A stretch of 64,000 nt of DNA from Candidatus Planktophila lacus (GTDB lineage: Bacteria; Actinomycetota; Actinomycetes; Nanopelagicales; Nanopelagicaceae). The notes under the pieces are model-generated. The model had not been told where the DNA came from. It saw nothing but the letters and a program-made list of their open reading frames with translations, and did no database searches. The DNA is taken from contig NZ_CP016780.1 of NCBI RefSeq assembly GCF_002288325.1, forward strand, positions 434,001 to 498,000, read 5' to 3'. Below, in pieces: positions 2,245 through 30,226 of the stretch. Numbering within the stretch: position 1 is the stretch's first letter; the number at the start of each line of letters is the position of its first letter. The translations under genes were made by a program, and so were the position numbers.

Positions 2245-3735
2245 TTAATTCTGGGGAAAGCCGAGGTTGATTCCACCATGGCTTGGATCTAACCAGCGGC
2301 TAGTGATCGCTTTGCCGCGAGTAAAGAAGTGCACGCCTTCTTCACCGTGCGCTTTGGTGTCACCAAATAACGATTGCTTCCAACCACCGAATGAGTAGTA
2401 AGCAACTGGTACAGGGATTGGAACGTTAATTCCGACCATGCCAACTTGAATCTCGTTCTGGAAGCGACGCGCTGCGCCACCATCATTTGTAAAGATCGCA
2501 GTTCCGTTGCCGAATGCACCGCTATTAATTAGCGCAACGCCTTCGTCGTATGTCTTTACGCGAACAACAGAAAGGACTGGTCCGAAGATTTCATCCTTAT
2601 AAACACTTGAAGTAGTTGGTACCTGGTCGATCAGGGTTGGCCCAAGCCAGAAACCAGCAGCCTCGCCATCGGCCTTTACGCCGCGACCATCAACAACAAC
2701 CTTTGCACCATCTTTAATTGCAATATCAATGTAGCCAGCAACCTTGTCACGGTGTTCTTTAGTAACAAGTGGACCCATATCGCATCCGCGGCGACCATCA
2801 CCGGTGCGCAACTTGTCCATACGAGAAACGATCTTCTCGATCAAGGCATCTGCAACTGGCTCAACTGCAACGACAACTGAGATCGCCATGCAACGTTCTC
2901 CAGCTGAACCGAAGCCTGCGTTGATCGCTGAATCTGCAACTAGTTCGAGGTCAGCATCTGGCAAGACCAACATATGGTTCTTGGCGCCACCAAGTGATTG
3001 CACGCGCTTTCCAGCCTTGGCACATTCTTCGTAGATATAACGCGCAATTGGAGTTGAACCAACGAATGAAATTGATTCAACATCAGGGGAGTGCAACAAA
3101 CCATCTACAGATTCTTTATCGCCATTCAAAACGTTAAATACGCCATCAGGCAGACCCGCCTCTTTCCAAAGCTTGGCGATCCAGATTGATGCAGTTGGAT
3201 CTTTCTCAGATGGCTTCAATACAACTGTGTTTCCGGCAGCGATTGCGATTGGGTAGAACCACATCGGAACCATCGCTGGGAAGTTAAATGGAGAGATAAT
3301 TCCAACAACGCCAAGTGCCTGACGAGTTGAGTAAACATCCACACCGGTTGAAACGTTTTCGGAGTAGTAACCCTTAATAAGTTGTGGCATTCCAACTGCA
3401 AACTCGACTACTTCTTGGCCACGGGTAATTTCACCGAGAGCATCAGATAAAACTTTTCCGTGCTCGCTCGTGATGATCTCGGCGAGCTCGCCCTTTTTAG
3501 CATTTAGAAGTTCGCGGAATTTAAAGACGATCTGTTGACGCGCTGCTAGTGAAGTCTTCGACCAACCAGGAAATGCTTTCTTCGCAGATGCGATAGCAGC
3601 GTTGATCTCTGCCGCATTTGCCAGCGCAACGCGCTTTGTCTCAACACCTAAAGCAGGGTCATAGACAGGAGCGGTGCGTCCTGATGTGCTTGGTACCTCT
3701 TTATTATCAATCCAGTGTCCAACAGTTGTAGTCAT
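2245..3735 (-). CDS. mmsA: Methylmalonate-semialdehyde dehydrogenase (CoA-acylating)
   Basis: Aldehyde dehydrogenase superfamily member of 496 residues that converts malonate or methylmalonate semialdehyde to acetyl- or propionyl-CoA, the last step of inositol and valine breakdown (also called IolA). Visible landmarks are PFNFPAM with the oxyanion Asn151, the NAD segment KPSEKDP (175-181), LGGAKNH at 248-254 where Asn replaces the general-base Glu as in MMSDH enzymes, and the nucleophile Cys282 in GSAGERCMA. The ATG at 3735 has a TAGGAT hexamer exactly six bases upstream, so it may have its own leaderless promoter overlapping the end of the amidohydrolase gene. Pairing with iolD supports the inositol role. 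Confidence 0.94.
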   Translation of the reverse strand: MTTTVGHWIDNKEVPSTSGRTAPVYDPALGVETKRVALANAAEINAAIASAKKAFPGWSKTSLAARQQIVFKFRELLNAKKGELAEIITSEHGKVLSDALGEITRGQEVVEFAVGMPQLIKGYYSENVSTGVDVYSTRQALGVVGIISPFNFPAMVPMWFYPIAIAAGNTVVLKPSEKDPTASIWIAKLWKEAGLPDGVFNVLNGDKESVDGLLHSPDVESISFVGSTPIARYIYEECAKAGKRVQSLGGAKNHMLVLPDADLELVADSAINAGFGSAGERCMAISVVVAVEPVADALIEKIVSRMDKLRTGDGRRGCDMGPLVTKEHRDKVAGYIDIAIKDGAKVVVDGRGVKADGEAAGFWLGPTLIDQVPTTSSVYKDEIFGPVLSVVRVKTYDEGVALINSGAFGNGTAIFTNDGGAARRFQNEIQVGMVGINVPIPVPVAYYSFGGWKQSLFGDTKAHGEEGVHFFTRGKAITSRWLDPSHGGINLGFPQN

Positions 3736-3739
3736 AGCC

Positions 3740-5332
3740 TCATCCTATGACGGCAACCCCAGATTTATAAACGGTCCGAATCTTGATACTGGCCACATCA
3801 TGCGGTGCAATCGCCAGCGGGTTCTGCTCCAGAATCATCAAATCTGCCTGCATTCCGACGGCGATCTCGCCAAAGCGCTTTTCATTAAAGCCTTGGTAGG
3901 CAACGCCTGCGGTGTAGAAAGACAAACTCTCTTCAACCGTTATCGCCTCGTGCGCACTCCAACCTTCAGCCGGCCATTTATCTGGTGATTGGCGATGCGT
4001 TGGAACCGCTAGCGCCAATAAAGGAATGTAAGAGGTAACTGGCCAATCGCTGCCGTAACTCATTCGCGCACCGCTTTTAACCATCGACTTCAATTGATAT
4101 TGACGATTGTTTCGTTCATCACCAATACGCGGTGCAATAAGTTCTTTATTCATCGGATCTAAGTAAGTCCACAACGGTTGGAAGTTTGCAATCACCCCAA
4201 GGGATGCAAAACGTGGCAGATCTGCTTCATCAATTAACTGCGCATGTGTAATGACGGGACGGCGATCCCACTTGGGATTTACCGCCACCATCTTTTCAAT
4301 CGTATCGAGCGCCTGTCGAGCTGCCGCATCTCCAATGGCATGGATATGTAGTTGATAACCCTGCGAATCAAATAACACAGCGGCATCCAAGATTTCGTCA
4401 TCGCTCCAGATCAATAAACCCTTCGATGTTGGATTATCTAGATATGGCTCAAGCAGCGCCGCGGTTCCGGCAGATAAAGCACCATCGCCAATAATCTTTA
4501 TCGTCTTACATGCCAACTTCGACTTAGGTCCAAGTGCATTTACTTGTTCGCGAATCTGCCCAAAGTATTCGACGTTATCTCGCCATGAATCTGGCTGCGC
4601 CAACATGTATAAATCCATATTGATCTGTAACGCACCTGATTTATCGGCCGCTATATAAGCCTCTGCCATACCCGGTGTAACCCACGCATCAACTGATGCG
4701 GTGACACCACTTTCTAAGTAACGCTGCGAAGACCAAGCTATTGCTGCTACATCATCTTCTAGTGTGCGCTCTGGCGCGTGTTTCATAATCAAATCCATCG
4801 CAGATGGCTCGCGCAGTGTGCCGCGCGCTGATCCATCGGGGTTACGCGCAATGGTGCCACCATCAGGATCAACAGTTGCAGCGGTTATTCCGGCAATCTC
4901 AATCGCTTTGCTATTTACCCAAATCGTATGGTGATCAACAGCCTGCAAAACAACGGGGCGATCACTAACAACTTCATCTAACCAACTTGCTAAGAAATCT
5001 CCACCGCTAACTGAAGCAGCTTCATAAGCACCGCCCACAATCCACGGGGTATTCGGATTAGCCTCTGCAAATCTTTTAACTTCGGCAACGATTTCAGCAA
5101 CAGTCTGTAGACCATTTACTAGCGGCCCTTGCGCTTCGCGTCCACCAAATAACGGATGTGCATGGCCATCCATAAATGCCGGTGCCATAAACTCACCTTT
5201 TAGATCAACAACGTTATCTCCGGGTTGAGCAGCGCCATTTATCTCAACGATCTTCTCGCCATCGATGCGCACAGAGTCGGCAACACATCCGATGCCACAC
5301 CAGATAGTGCCGCCGCTAAAGAAAGTTGCCAC
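3740..5332 (-). CDS. Amidohydrolase family 3 protein (YtcJ-like)
   Basis: A 530-residue metal-dependent hydrolase of the amidohydrolase superfamily. Metal-ligand motifs are present in order: HAH at 57-59 in FMDGHAHP, VDHHTIW near 152, HIHAIGDAAARQA with the two conserved histidines in the middle, THAQLIDEADLPRF, and the C-terminal SYGSDWPV with the catalytic Asp. The terminal MQADLMIL segment is the usual beta-sandwich end. The substrate cannot be told from sequence; YtcJ-type enzymes act on amides, N-acyl compounds or related C-N bonds. The GTG start is preceded by AGGGAGCG. Its stop lies 4 bp from the mmsA start, so it is probably co-transcribed with inositol genes, but no role in that pathway is known. 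Confidence 0.88.
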   Translation of the reverse strand: MATFFSGGTIWCGIGCVADSVRIDGEKIVEINGAAQPGDNVVDLKGEFMAPAFMDGHAHPLFGGREAQGPLVNGLQTVAEIVAEVKRFAEANPNTPWIVGGAYEAASVSGGDFLASWLDEVVSDRPVVLQAVDHHTIWVNSKAIEIAGITAATVDPDGGTIARNPDGSARGTLREPSAMDLIMKHAPERTLEDDVAAIAWSSQRYLESGVTASVDAWVTPGMAEAYIAADKSGALQINMDLYMLAQPDSWRDNVEYFGQIREQVNALGPKSKLACKTIKIIGDGALSAGTAALLEPYLDNPTSKGLLIWSDDEILDAAVLFDSQGYQLHIHAIGDAAARQALDTIEKMVAVNPKWDRRPVITHAQLIDEADLPRFASLGVIANFQPLWTYLDPMNKELIAPRIGDERNNRQYQLKSMVKSGARMSYGSDWPVTSYIPLLALAVPTHRQSPDKWPAEGWSAHEAITVEESLSFYTAGVAYQGFNEKRFGEIAVGMQADLMILEQNPLAIAPHDVASIKIRTVYKSGVAVIG

Positions 5333-5369: not shown

Positions 5370-7025
5370 TTACTTCTTTTTATATCCCGCCGGGCACTTA
5401 GGACTAACTGCCGTTACCTTCTTAGTGGTCTTTCCCTTTACGCAAGAGATTGTGATCTTCTTAGAGGCGACCGGCGCCACAACCTTCTCCTGAGAAAGCT
5501 TTACGTTGATAGTTGGCGCAGAGAATGTAAATCCCTTAGCAGAGAGATAGAGCCATCCGTTCTTCTCGTTAACGATAGTGGTGGCAACTTTCTTCTCACC
5601 TTCATCGGAGGTAATTGAAATCTCTGCCTTGATCGGAGCGCTTGAGAAACCATAGAGACAGCGCGCAATATCGCTACGCATCGACAAGTCGTAACTTCCG
5701 GAGGCGAGAGAGCCATTTGCTTCATAATGCGGTGAAGCAACTTTATAGGTGAGCGATTGCGATTCTTTATCAAATGTCGGAGGACCAGGTAGATAAGTAA
5801 GGGCATTGGTTGTTACAAGACCTGCAACGTTTCCTGTGTTATCTGAACATTTCTGAACATCACTGGAATTCTGGCCGTAATTCATTGCTTTAAAGGCCCA
5901 AGTTGTGTTTGTCGATGTTGCCTTATCTTTATATGCGGGGGCAAAGGCCGCAGCTAAATCAACCATTACAGCTGAAGAGGAACCGTCGTTGATGCGTGCT
6001 TCTCTTATTCCATCCCCGCTCTTTCCGAAGTATCTATCAGTAAAAACAATGTCTCGAACTTTCTGTGGAATCTCTGCATTAGGAACAGAGAAGTTCAACG
6101 TTGGAACACGTACTGGTTCGGCTTCGACTGAAATTTCCTGTCCAGTTTTCCAATTCTTAATCGTTACATCAGGCAGTGCCAAACGTCCGTGGTACCAACC
6201 AGATAACTTTGTTCCCATGCGCAGCGAAACACCAAAGCGATAGCCCGCTGGAAATTCACGAACGGCTTCACAGACATTTACATCAGTTCCGACACAACGC
6301 GAACCGTCTGGCAAATACCAATTTCCAGTATCGCCCCAGTTAACCCAAGAAGCACGAGCGGTGCCGTTATCACGCGGCTGAATCAATCTATATTGCCCAG
6401 GAATTTCTTCGACAGGCGATATTCCAGTCTTTAGCTCGCTAAGGAAAATCTTTCGTGCACTAATTGGCTCACCAGCTTTCTTCTCTGGTTGAGCAAGCAT
6501 AAATTGAGATGATACAAAGTATGTATCTTTACCTGCGCTATTGATGACGCCAGGTATTTGCCACAGCGCACCTTGCCCTGTTCCATCCGGCAAATTGATC
6601 GCAACATTTTCTTTAAATGTAAATTTCCCGTAATCCAGTGGAACAGATTTAACTAATTTTCCAGGAATCTTTTTTCCGGCCGAGTCAACCGCCCAAACAT
6701 CAGCGATACATGCAACGCTTGATGCATCGGTACAAACAGTGAGATTTACATATCCGATAATTCCAGCCGCATCAGTGCAAATCTTGTCCTCGAGATCATC
6801 GCAACGAAGCCAAGTTTCCTGCGAATCCAAGTTGCCTTTACCGAAGACAACATTTGGTGAGCGACCAAACTCCAACCCATCTTCGATTAGCAGTCCGAGT
6901 AGAGGAATATCTGGAGCGAACTTCATTCCGGCGTTAGCCGTATTGGCCTGAACCAACGAACCCAACAAAAGCGCAGCAACTAGAGCTGCTCCATATTTAC
7001 GGACTGACTTCACGTAAAACCCCAT
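5370..7025 (-). CDS. Large secreted protein with conserved two-Cys basic C-terminal tail
   Basis: About 551 residues with a signal peptide (basic KSVRKYG, hydrophobic AALVAALLLG, then Ala-rich cleavage region ending NTANAG). No enzymatic motif is recognised. Several paired cysteines in the first 120 residues (RCDDLEDKICTD, VCTDASSVAC) suggest disulfides. The last 30 residues form a Lys-rich tail with two Cys (CVKGKTTKKVTAVSPKC then PAGYKKK), shared with the proteins at 8911-9975 and 28973-30226. The region before the tail (KKVATTIV, NGWLYLSAKGFTFSAP) also aligns with the 28973 protein, so these two are paralogues. I took ATG 7025; a TTG at 7031 in frame is the alternative. Function unknown, probably cell-surface. 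Confidence 0.8.
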   Translation of the reverse strand: MGFYVKSVRKYGAALVAALLLGSLVQANTANAGMKFAPDIPLLGLLIEDGLEFGRSPNVVFGKGNLDSQETWLRCDDLEDKICTDAAGIIGYVNLTVCTDASSVACIADVWAVDSAGKKIPGKLVKSVPLDYGKFTFKENVAINLPDGTGQGALWQIPGVINSAGKDTYFVSSQFMLAQPEKKAGEPISARKIFLSELKTGISPVEEIPGQYRLIQPRDNGTARASWVNWGDTGNWYLPDGSRCVGTDVNVCEAVREFPAGYRFGVSLRMGTKLSGWYHGRLALPDVTIKNWKTGQEISVEAEPVRVPTLNFSVPNAEIPQKVRDIVFTDRYFGKSGDGIREARINDGSSSAVMVDLAAAFAPAYKDKATSTNTTWAFKAMNYGQNSSDVQKCSDNTGNVAGLVTTNALTYLPGPPTFDKESQSLTYKVASPHYEANGSLASGSYDLSMRSDIARCLYGFSSAPIKAEISITSDEGEKKVATTIVNEKNGWLYLSAKGFTFSAPTINVKLSQEKVVAPVASKKITISCVKGKTTKKVTAVSPKCPAGYKKK

Positions 7026-7096
7026 TCGCAACTGACCGATACAGCCTACTTAGGCCTATATATCTGCCGTCAATTACCCCCGCGATTTATGCAGGG

Positions 7097-8910: not shown

Positions 8911-9975
8911 ATGAAATTTCGCGCAGCCGCCTTGGCCTTAGCCCTTTGCGCATCAACCTTTGTCCAGCCCGCAAACGCTTCATATAACGGCGTTATCGAC
9001 TATTCAAATCCGCGAATCGTTCCGATCTTCAGAAATGTAAATCAGGATTTCCCATCCTGGTCCGGTTACGCGTATTCATCAAGAATCATTTTCACAGCTG
9101 GACACAGCGAGGTAACAGTTAAAGAGAATGGCGAACGAATTGACCATTCTGCGATGCCTGCCTTTGTGGGATTACCAAACTCGAAAACTAGTAAAGATCT
9201 GAAGAAAGTGCCGGTGATTAAAAGATATCTCTCTACCACCATGCGTTTTGAAGGTGGAGCTATGGGCGATTTTGCAATCTATGTACTTGGCGAAGATATC
9301 GGTGACTTCAAGCCGGCAAAGCTAGGCACTTTAGAGATTCAAAAAGAATTGGAAGCGCAGAAAGCAGTGGTTGAAATAACTGGCTATGGAGAATATAGAG
9401 ATCGCTGCAATGAGGGTGAAAAACTTCCATGTACCGATAAATTCCAACCTCCACAATCTCAAGAACCTCGTAAGTTAAAAGTTCAAGTGCGCCCATATGA
9501 TGACTTTCTAACTCTCGTCGGTTATGAACGTCCGCAAGTAAAGGGAAGCCTGCTTACTTGGGGTGGCGGGAAAATCAGCCCTTGTGGTGGCGATTCAGGT
9601 GGATCTGTTACAACAACTTACAAGGGCGAAGAAATCTACCTATCTGTCACACCAAATGGTATGAACGGTTATGCATGTGGTGCAGCCGGTTATTACGATG
9701 GAAAAGGCGGAATTGGTTATGCATCACCGATTCAAGACCATCTTGATATTTTGAAGCAGGCAGAGGATTTTGTCGCTGCAGCACTTGCACAAGAAGCAAT
9801 AGAAAGAGCGAAAGCAAAGCCCGCTCCAACACCTTCGCCATCGGCATCTCCGACTCCTGTAGCTAAACCAATCGCAGCGCCTAAGAAATCAACGATTACC
9901 TGCGTTAAAGGAAAGACTTCAAAGAAGGTCACTGCCGTTTCACCGAAGTGCCCATCTGGCTATAAGAAGAAGTAG
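8911..9975 (+). CDS. Secreted trypsin-like serine protease with conserved C-terminal tail
   Basis: A 354-residue exported protease of the S1 (chymotrypsin) fold. The signal peptide is MKFRAAALALALCASTF through QPANAS. The catalytic triad is visible: His in IFTAGHSE, Asp in GDFAIYVL, and Ser in CGGDSGGS. A Pro/Ala/Ser linker (PTPSPSASPTPV) leads to a basic two-Cys tail (CVKGKTSKKVTAVSPKC, then PSGYKKK) almost identical to tails at 5370-7025 and 28973-30226. I reject an upstream in-frame GTG at 8842 because it lies inside the terminator hairpin. ATG 8911 has a TACTTT hexamer five bases upstream and a proper signal peptide. Substrate unknown. Confidence 0.88.
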   Translation: MKFRAAALALALCASTFVQPANASYNGVIDYSNPRIVPIFRNVNQDFPSWSGYAYSSRIIFTAGHSEVTVKENGERIDHSAMPAFVGLPNSKTSKDLKKVPVIKRYLSTTMRFEGGAMGDFAIYVLGEDIGDFKPAKLGTLEIQKELEAQKAVVEITGYGEYRDRCNEGEKLPCTDKFQPPQSQEPRKLKVQVRPYDDFLTLVGYERPQVKGSLLTWGGGKISPCGGDSGGSVTTTYKGEEIYLSVTPNGMNGYACGAAGYYDGKGGIGYASPIQDHLDILKQAEDFVAAALAQEAIERAKAKPAPTPSPSASPTPVAKPIAAPKKSTITCVKGKTSKKVTAVSPKCPSGYKKK

Positions 9976-10524: not shown

Positions 10525-10899
10525 ATGTTCGCCTTCAAATCGCTAGCGGCCAAGTACAGCGGGGCAATGGCGCTATTTCTGGTGATCTTCTCTGCTGGGT
10601 TTGTTGTCGTGCATGCATGTCACTCAGAGCAGGCAACTCATGCCAGCGCAGCCGGTCATCATCAAGTTCTCGAACAATCCGGAGGCAACGCAATTGGCGG
10701 CAATTCACTCGTTGCAAATGTATGCACAGCTGCCTTCTTCGTAGTTCTCCTGGTAAGTCGCAAATATCTTCTCAAGAAAAGCAGCGGTGTCCTTCTTCGT
10801 GTAAAGAGCCAGATATTCCTTTTAGGCAGCGTTTTACAAAGGCCACCCAATATCAAATACGCGCTTTCACTTACTCAATTAGGAGTTATCCGAATCTAA
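10525..10899 (+). CDS. Small membrane protein of unknown function
   Basis: A 124-residue protein with a hydrophobic segment at about 14-31 (GAMALFLVIFSAGFVVVH), a short polar part rich in His and one Cys (HACHSEQATHASAAGHH), a second hydrophobic segment at about 65-78 (CTAAFFVVLLVS), then a basic cytoplasmic-type tail. The His/Cys stretch between two membrane segments could bind metal, and the next gene is DUF305, a family often linked to copper; both points are inference. The ATG has TACCGT seven bases upstream. I do not recognise a family. Confidence 0.55.
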   Translation: MFAFKSLAAKYSGAMALFLVIFSAGFVVVHACHSEQATHASAAGHHQVLEQSGGNAIGGNSLVANVCTAAFFVVLLVSRKYLLKKSSGVLLRVKSQIFLLGSVLQRPPNIKYALSLTQLGVIRI

Positions 10900-28972: not shown

Positions 28973-30226
28973 CTACTTCTTTTTAAAGCCTGTTGGGCAC
29001 TTAGGTGGTGCGCCGGTTACCTTCTTTGAGGTCTTGCCTTTCACGCAAGTGATCGTTGATTTCTTTGGCGCAACTGTCTTGGTTGCTTGCACAGGCTGCT
29101 TTACTGCTTGCTCTGGCCCCTTAAAGCTAATAGCCAATTGTGGAGATGAGTAAGTAAAGCCGTAGGCGCGCAGGTTGATCCAATCGTTCTTCGAATCATA
29201 TTTAGCGCTAACGGTTGCTATTTTTGTAGTTCCATCTTGGTAAGAGATTTCCACTTTGGCATAACCTGCAGCAATTGCAGGATCGATGCCCCACCAGTCG
29301 CGGGCGCGGTTGCCTTTAATCTTCAGCTCCATCCAGCCCTGGATCTCGTTACCGTATTCATCGAAGTGAGCGTTGCCAACTTTTACGACGATCTGCTGGT
29401 TTACGCGATCAAAGCGGAAATCACTTAGACACCACCAACCATTTGTTCCGAGGATTACATCATCGGGGCGAGTCTCACCTGTCTTATTACCTGCATCGTA
29501 ATAAATCATATTTACTGCGATATTTCTTTTCGTAGTTTTTGCTCTCAATAAATTCTGATCGCAGACTTGATCGCCCAGTTGTGCAGACGGACTATTTTCA
29601 GGAAGTCCCTTTACGGTGATTATGTCGCCAGCAACGCTTACCTCTGGATCGCGCACATTAGAGAGCACCCATTTGATTTTCTTGGCGAATCCGCTGCTCT
29701 TTAATTTAAATTCAAAATAGTAGCCTTCAGGAAGCGAACTTAAATCTTGATTGTATCCAGTCGTGTTGATCTGCAAACTAGCGCTCATAAGGTGGACATA
29801 TGAATGGATCAAATCCGTGCCATCGCTATTTGTTATTCCTGTGGGCAATTTCCAATGCGAAATAGGAACCATTTGATCTTTTACATAAGCAGAGTTCTCA
29901 ACAGGTTCGCCTTGAGGGGTATTTGTAATCAACCAATATTGCACAGACTCACTCGGTTTGAAATCCTTCGGAACCTGATAGGTGAGGGCGCCAGCATCTG
30001 TTCCATCTGATTTATAAATGTTGATTCCTGCAATGCAATCGTTGGTGATCTGCCATTCATCGCGACATGGAATCCATTGGCCATAACGGATATCGGTTAG
30101 GCCGGTCTGCTTCCACCACTTTGGTTCAGGCGGCATCGGAAAAGGATCGGCGGCGCTTGCTGGGGTTAACGTGGTGACAGTCAAAAGTAAGGCGATTGCG
30201 ATGCGAAGCGCTGAACGAGTTTTCAT
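28973..30226 (-). CDS. Secreted protein with conserved two-Cys tail, paralogue of the 5.4-kb protein
   Basis: A 417-residue exported protein with a signal peptide (ALRIAIALLLTVTTLTPASA). No catalytic motif is recognised. Cysteine pairs (PCRDEWQITNDC) occur near residue 55. The segment VEISYQDGTTKIATVSAKY then DWINLRAYGFTYSSP near 330-375 matches the same region of the 5370-7025 protein. The last 27 residues are the shared tail (CVKGKTSKKVTGAPPKC, PTGFKKK). A surface-bound beta-rich protein is likely; no function can be named. Confidence 0.8.
   Translation of the reverse strand: MKTRSALRIAIALLLTVTTLTPASAADPFPMPPEPKWWKQTGLTDIRYGQWIPCRDEWQITNDCIAGINIYKSDGTDAGALTYQVPKDFKPSESVQYWLITNTPQGEPVENSAYVKDQMVPISHWKLPTGITNSDGTDLIHSYVHLMSASLQINTTGYNQDLSSLPEGYYFEFKLKSSGFAKKIKWVLSNVRDPEVSVAGDIITVKGLPENSPSAQLGDQVCDQNLLRAKTTKRNIAVNMIYYDAGNKTGETRPDDVILGTNGWWCLSDFRFDRVNQQIVVKVGNAHFDEYGNEIQGWMELKIKGNRARDWWGIDPAIAAGYAKVEISYQDGTTKIATVSAKYDSKNDWINLRAYGFTYSSPQLAISFKGPEQAVKQPVQATKTVAPKKSTITCVKGKTSKKVTGAPPKCPTGFKKK

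Follow-up and report, generated by a model that had tools for sequence, protein, structure and literature searches.

Three exported proteins encoded in the window end in a common C-terminal tail, which we read as a lysine-rich, probably disulfide-closed envelope-binding module by which exported proteins, those of phages included, would be retained on the cell non-covalently; we give this reading a probability of roughly 0.6. It builds on computed properties of the tail, namely modularity, predicted export, selection at the protein level, a predicted fold, lineage restriction among the sampled genomes and carriage on viral contigs. The window is the whole stretch of 64,000 nucleotides that was analysed, from position 434,001 to 498,000 in a genome of 1.38 Mb that consists of one contig (lineage Actinomycetota, Ca. 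Nanopelagicales, Ca. Nanopelagicaceae, nearest to Ca. Planktophila lacus; G118 is a genome of the same species). The three carriers and their parts are as follows.

8911..9975, + strand: exported trypsin-like serine protease; tail TITCVKGKTSKKVTAVSPKCPSGYKKK
9841..9876, + strand: flexible Pro/Ala-rich linker from the protease domain to the module; pLDDT < 50 at mature residues 289-300
9877..9972, + strand: module at the protease C-terminus, formed by the last 32 residues; profile match and AF2 hairpin
5370..7031, - strand: large exported beta-rich protein of 553 residues, main carrier family; tail TISCVKGKTTKKVTAVSPKCPAGYKKK
5373..5468, - strand: C-terminal module of the 553-residue protein; sequence, and AF2 strands 491-497 and 500-506
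28973..30226, - strand: shorter exported member of the main carrier family, 417 residues; tail TITCVKGKTSKKVTGAPPKCPTGFKKK
28976..29071, - strand: C-terminal module of the 417-residue protein; sequence and profile

A near-identical tail on these three proteins had been noticed in a sequence-only reading of the window, and all three indeed end as described. In the proposed tail pattern, one variable position is missing between T and KKVT. The body of the protease is trypsin-like, since it has both the S1 fold and a His-Asp-Ser triad. A PDB fold search matched it to the trypsin fold, including thrombin and bacterial trypsins, and the triad consists of His43, Asp98 and Ser207 (mature numbering; codons starting at 9103, 9268 and 9595). 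In the protease alignment A4 (18 sequences), H43 and S207 are invariant and D98 is nearly so. The window protease itself gave only insignificant matches in Pfam and NCBIfam; its relative L055 matches Pfam Trypsin. With 30% identity over a comparison that includes the tail, the two large proteins are distant paralogues; body clustering placed the protease in a different family. The 553-residue protein had no significant match in Pfam or NCBIfam. When the large body was compared with PDB folds, no match was convincing: among the 50 matches listed, TM-scores did not exceed 0.17 when normalised on the query and 0.33 when normalised on the target, and the first eight matches had an rmsd over 20 Å.

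The genome contains 18 copies of the module, each with E <= 3e-14 in a search with a profile built from these same copies; with the protease tail alone as first query, 17 copies were obtained from the same genome at E <= 7e-7. The similarity between tails is far beyond chance. Fifteen of the 17 other genomic tails are 55-82% identical to the protease tail, the full range being 38-82%. All 18 copies end within two residues of the consensus end, with a stop codon directly after, and each of the 18 carrier proteins starts with a signal peptide, as judged by eye. Sixteen carriers belong to the large exported family, while the protease and a 397-residue protein represent two other families. The 14 aligned members of the large family are 23-36% identical to its window protein, tail included. 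Six of its genes lie in tandem at 1,106,969-1,117,610; they are closely packed (L015) and this may be a strain-variable surface locus. One large-family member (L104:5731-7353) stops about where linker and module would begin, and is a natural tail-less relative.

A shared gene end could simply have been copied recently, or spread by gene conversion, with no function of its own. We compared codons over 153 pairs of the 24-residue core. They agreed at 43.0% of shared residues, and codon usage predicts 41.5%; in 500 codon-usage simulations the mean was 41.6% (sd 1.6), and 94 of the 500 reached the observed value. The synonymous codons are therefore as diverged as codon usage predicts, which indicates that the protein sequence is under selection and that the copies are not recent. 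The nucleotide sequence of the tail had been described as conserved too, but with 43.0% observed against 41.6% simulated this does not extend beyond the amino-acid constraint. Copying can still claim the large size of the main carrier family (103 of 162 carriers) and a few closer pairs: three pairs of adjacent paralogues show 67-71% codon agreement and a few others 64-67%, indicating that those few are recent while the set as a whole is not. For the whole tail set, recent copying was rejected by the synonymous-codon test, and it is also opposed by the carriage of the module in 21 body families, in 15 of 17 genera and on viral contigs. We consider that it has virtually no chance of being the explanation. 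With diverged codons and many unrelated bodies, the tail is not limited to recent paralogues.

Among the loci with the tail, many MAG titles, Bifidobacterium and Streptomyces for example, look mislabelled and were disregarded. The named loci include one in Ca. P. lacus MMS-21-148 that is syntenic with the window. Here the protease body (8911-9975 against L095:3029-4096) is down to 53% identity and the module core is nearly unchanged, which again argues against recent copying. The three genes compared to the left of the protease are 97-99.5% identical; to the right, the next gene is 96% identical, and those following are at 50%, 75%, 89% and 88%. The protease is thus one of at least two divergent spots at this locus, and a body at 53% identity beside near-identical flanking genes suggests either replacement or fast diversification of the protease. 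A second divergent spot is the small frame at 10525-10899, two genes to the right of the protease, which is 50% identical in MMS-21-148.

A search with profile A1 gave 237 module matches in 235 frames (168 loci and the window), 232 of them ending within four residues of the frame end. The carrier loci are best matches (best 80; best 30 per genome search), so that the carrier set leans towards close tail copies. The 235 frames were reduced to 179 distinct ones, and bodies were clustered by single-linkage BLASTP after 17 frames under 200 residues had been left out. The resulting 162 bacterial carriers of at least 200 residues fell into 21 body families, with 103, 19, 9, 7, 5, 3 and 2 members and 14 singletons; as clusters are single-linkage, the largest, with its 103 members, may be chained. 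For the 20 smaller families, a single representative each was compared with Pfam: ten passed the cut-off (Trypsin, LRR_5, AIR9-type Ig, Peripla_BP_6, fn3, Kelch, DUF3472, RCC1, Peptidase_S8 and DUF1501), seven had no family and three had matches below the cut-off only. The DUF1501 carrier, L059, appears by eye to start with a twin-arginine-type signal. The linkers are Pro/Thr/Ser-rich, Lys/Ala coiled-coil-like or nearly absent.

The module can also lie elsewhere in the protein. In L044 and L047 it stands directly after the signal peptide and is followed by a linker and a domain, and L112 has three internal copies with Pro-rich linkers between them. Four copies occur in one 419-residue frame of G003, and two each in frames of 749-774 residues in G106, G118, G124 and G136. 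N-terminal and internal tandem copies fit a binding module; they do not fit an obligate C-terminal signal. Judged from sequence and models, the module is autonomously folding, position-independent and repeatable.

Two separate AF2 models agree on a confident small beta-hairpin. In the protease model (18 sequences, mean pLDDT 83), the module forms strands 305-311 and 314-320 in mature numbering, with a block pLDDT of 80-89, and is preceded by a segment with pLDDT < 50. In the model of the large protein (44 sequences, mean pLDDT 86), the strands span residues 491-497 and 500-506 and the last three blocks reach 92-94. The cysteine pair is invariant in the 63 diverse copies of profile A5, for which one of 61 diverse copies (16-residue spacing) had been left out and two copies of another class added. 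The spacing between the cysteines is 15 residues in 197 of 198 distinct copies and 16 in one. Because the pair is invariant and its spacing nearly constant, the two cysteines are probably closed by a disulfide. VKOR was considered as a disulfide partner and is unsupported: of 25 genomes, 2 have it, neither of them tail-rich and neither with a copy of the module by profile A1, so that an obvious catalyst for the disulfide is lacking here.

An invariant cysteine pair in 63 diverse copies, together with the coiled-coil-like linkers of some carriers, would also suit a cap that serves stability, folding or multimerisation, for instance through an inter-chain disulfide, and has no anchoring role. 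Such a cap is very unlikely in our view, as a flexible linker separates module and body in the protease model, the module sits on bodies of many folds, and its lysines are conserved although a cap would not need them.

Export of the carriers was assessed with a home-made signal-peptide rule on 145 of the distinct frames, 34 that run into the end of a locus having been left out. It recognised a signal peptide in 138 of the 145 carriers and in 131 of 256 control frames; the rule is lax, as the best of several starts was kept and about half of the controls pass, some of them plainly not exported. Seven carriers failed the rule. In L037 a signal peptide is nevertheless evident by eye; for L082, L085 and L134, homologous sequence lies upstream in a different frame; L070 borders on a stretch of unread bases; and the two L034 frames start inside a carrier-family body (the second judged from its residues alone). 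No convincing cytoplasmic carrier was therefore found among the 145; occurrence of the tail on cytoplasmic proteins had been named as evidence against a surface role.

Other anchors are rare on the carriers. Transmembrane segments beyond residue 150 were predicted in 4 of 145 carriers versus 59 of 256 controls, and at a slightly looser threshold in 7 of 138 versus 49 of 131. Among proteins that passed the signal-peptide rule and had no transmembrane segment, a lipobox was present in 1 of 131 carriers versus 7 of 82 controls (Fisher p 0.006), a contrast that involves few cases and a control set including frames plainly not exported. Solute-binding proteins are usually lipid-anchored in Gram-positives; L109, a solute-binding protein, has the module and no lipobox by eye. 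The motifs LP.TG and LA.TG were absent from the last 60 residues of all 145 carriers and all 256 controls. No hydrophobic helix was found near the C-terminus: the tails lack a hydrophobic stretch, and 141 of 145 carriers have no transmembrane segment beyond residue 150. A cysteine-paired, lysine-rich hairpin on carriers that are otherwise unanchored is best read as a putative non-covalent envelope anchor.

The rival closest to known surface display is a C-terminal sorting signal, in which the tail would be recognised and cut and the protein attached by a transpeptidase or protease, as with LPXTG or CTERM. The module lies within four residues of the frame end in 176 of the 179 distinct frames, as such a signal should, and convincing cytoplasmic carriers are lacking. 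We looked for partner genes in 25 genomes, 12 of them tail-rich and 13 low- or zero-copy. A co-occurring processing enzyme had been suggested, but sortase (PF04203) was found in none of the 12 tail-rich genomes and in 1 of the 25 overall, a genome without the module; a control search was positive in 3 of 14 genomes. Of the 13 low- or zero-copy genomes, 12 lack sortase as well; its absence therefore does not track the module and is background, not proof. Together with the copies placed after a signal peptide (L044, L047) or in internal tandem, its absence from all 12 tail-rich genomes makes a cleaved C-terminal signal quite unlikely, and the module is moreover predicted to fold by itself, with no membrane helix after it. 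The sequence-only reading had proposed an undescribed surface-retention or sorting signal. Of this, an undescribed retention module is the part that holds up, given the lack of a significant match in Pfam, NCBIfam or PHROGs, the lack of a convincing cytoplasmic carrier among 145, and the many unrelated bodies; sorting is disfavoured by the position of the module and by the absence of sortase from the tail-rich genomes tested, and the anatomy of the carriers points to retention.

The module was found in 140 of 201 sampled genomes of Ca. Nanopelagicaceae and in 15 of 17 genera. The genomes contain between 0 and 23 copies, and the module is therefore not essential. In a sample of the class (profile A5, E <= 0.01), 32 of 41 genomes of the family were positive against 2 of 353 others, one of these weak at 0.004. 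In a sample of the phylum, the module appeared in the own genome and in 2 of 395 others, both from one genus of another class; the family of that genus yielded the same 2 genomes out of 61. The carriers there are exported proteins of 188 and 183 residues. Across these genomes, which are samples and not complete sets, the distribution suggests a trait of the family that is rarely transferred.

The module lies outside the known families that we searched. Pfam gave nothing significant for 18 and 63 copies (best E 0.033, TSP_1, 2 of 63), NCBIfam matched none of the 18 copies, and the best E values in PHROGs (0.13) and among PDB sequences (0.15) were not significant. No published description of the module was found in open-licence PubMed Central papers. 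The words 'C-terminal' and 'sortase' are absent from the main text of a paper on secreted proteomes from fresh water, Planktophila among them (PMC11039613). The module is best read as acting like a wall-binding module outside any known family tested.

Like the signals of the sortase/LPXTG system, the module stands at the C-terminus of many exported proteins that are unrelated to one another, in a bacterium of Gram-positive type, and would serve surface display; it differs in having no LPXTG-like motif, no membrane helix and no sortase (12 of 12 tail-rich genomes), in its free position and in its predicted hairpin. GlyGly-CTERM, PEP-CTERM and the C-terminal domain of the T9SS, an outer-membrane system of Bacteroidota, are lineage-specific regions of C-terminal homology on unrelated exported proteins, as is the module, but the latter has no transmembrane helix and can be N-terminal. 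The Excalibur domain, too, is short, has two cysteines and lies at the C-terminal end of exported bacterial proteins; it has an Asp-rich calcium loop, which the lysine-rich module lacks, and the module does not match Pfam. LysM, SLH, GW, CWB2 and choline-binding repeats are small repeatable modules that bind the wall non-covalently, at either protein end, behind a linker and sometimes in tandem. The module resembles them in all of these arrangements, with non-covalent binding as the proposed activity. In contrast to them, it has no significant Pfam match, is about 30 residues long with one cysteine pair, and is nearly confined to one freshwater actinobacterial family in the sampled genomes.

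We propose that the module, of about 27-32 residues, consists of a beta-hairpin of two strands and a subsequent P-x-C-P-x-G-[YF] turn, with a lysine-rich face and end; its cysteines are probably paired in a disulfide. Usually through a flexible linker, it would be joined to many different proteins exported by Sec and, in one apparent case, by Tat. Once exported, it would attach non-covalently to part of the producing cell's envelope, the likeliest target being an anionic wall polymer or peptidoglycan. In this way a cell that has no sortase may keep proteases, solute-binding proteins, adhesin-like repeats and other proteins on its surface. LCP ligases attach wall polymers, and an LCP ligase is present in 24 of the 25 genomes, so that anionic wall polymers probably exist; tail-rich and tail-poor genomes do not differ in this. 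The same holds for LysM, also found in 24 of 25 genomes and as a single copy in all but one of those.

Binding could instead be directed outwards, to a substrate or particle such as a polysaccharide, nucleic acid or other cells, in the manner of a small carbohydrate-binding domain. Many bodies are adhesin-like or enzymatic, the sequence is lysine-rich, and unrelated enzymes can have one binding module in common. We nevertheless regard this as unlikely, because one sequence is found on very different bodies, among them a solute-binding protein that is bound to stay on its own cell, and on exported proteins from viral contigs.

Envelope retention would extend to viruses. IMG/VR contained 42 loci with the module, each with one carrier frame and with the module at most five residues from the frame end. 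In 26 of them (L172-L193, L195, L197-L199) the carrier has about 570 residues and, judged by eye, a signal peptide, and all 26 loci contain a relative of the L185 gene for the terminase large subunit. In L185 the carrier (2408-4096) directly follows this gene, which was confirmed by PHROGs. A relative of a second large protein (L185:4239-6272), seemingly with a signal peptide, is present in 24 of the 26 loci. The other 16 viral-set carriers (L171, L194, L196, L200-L212) are trypsin-like, exported and related to the window protease; 13 of the 16 were aligned and three were judged from their ends. Fifteen of these loci have neighbouring frames in common with other viral loci, in the case of L211 a single frame; L171 has none of the probed viral genes and is putatively viral only. 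In L205, an endolysin matched by PHROGs is about 1 kb away from the carrier, and a WhiB-like frame was recognised by eye in L207. Published phage isolates of Planktophila carry whiB (PMC10202952). The module-bearing viruses are inferred to infect Nanopelagicales. Among 50,697 public phage records there was no match to the tail, to the 562-aa viral protein or to a viral protease.

Carriers encoded by phages may be held on the infected cell or be used for binding it. A more specific version of the retention reading, to which we give somewhat less than even odds, is that the disulfide-closed hairpin serves as a position-independent means of general display throughout the family, and that phages use it for exported proteases and for the terminase-adjacent protein, for example in superinfection exclusion.

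Nanopelagicales (acI) are among the most abundant lake bacteria, and the lack of sortase in the tail-rich genomes tested raises the question of how proteins are held on the cell. A good share of acI surface proteins may be recognisable by this one module and, if retention is true, sequence alone would tell retained from released proteins. The module also offers a way into a family of large exported proteins that lacks annotation, and would serve as a very small display tag. Finally, it points to viral proteins that may act at the cell surface.
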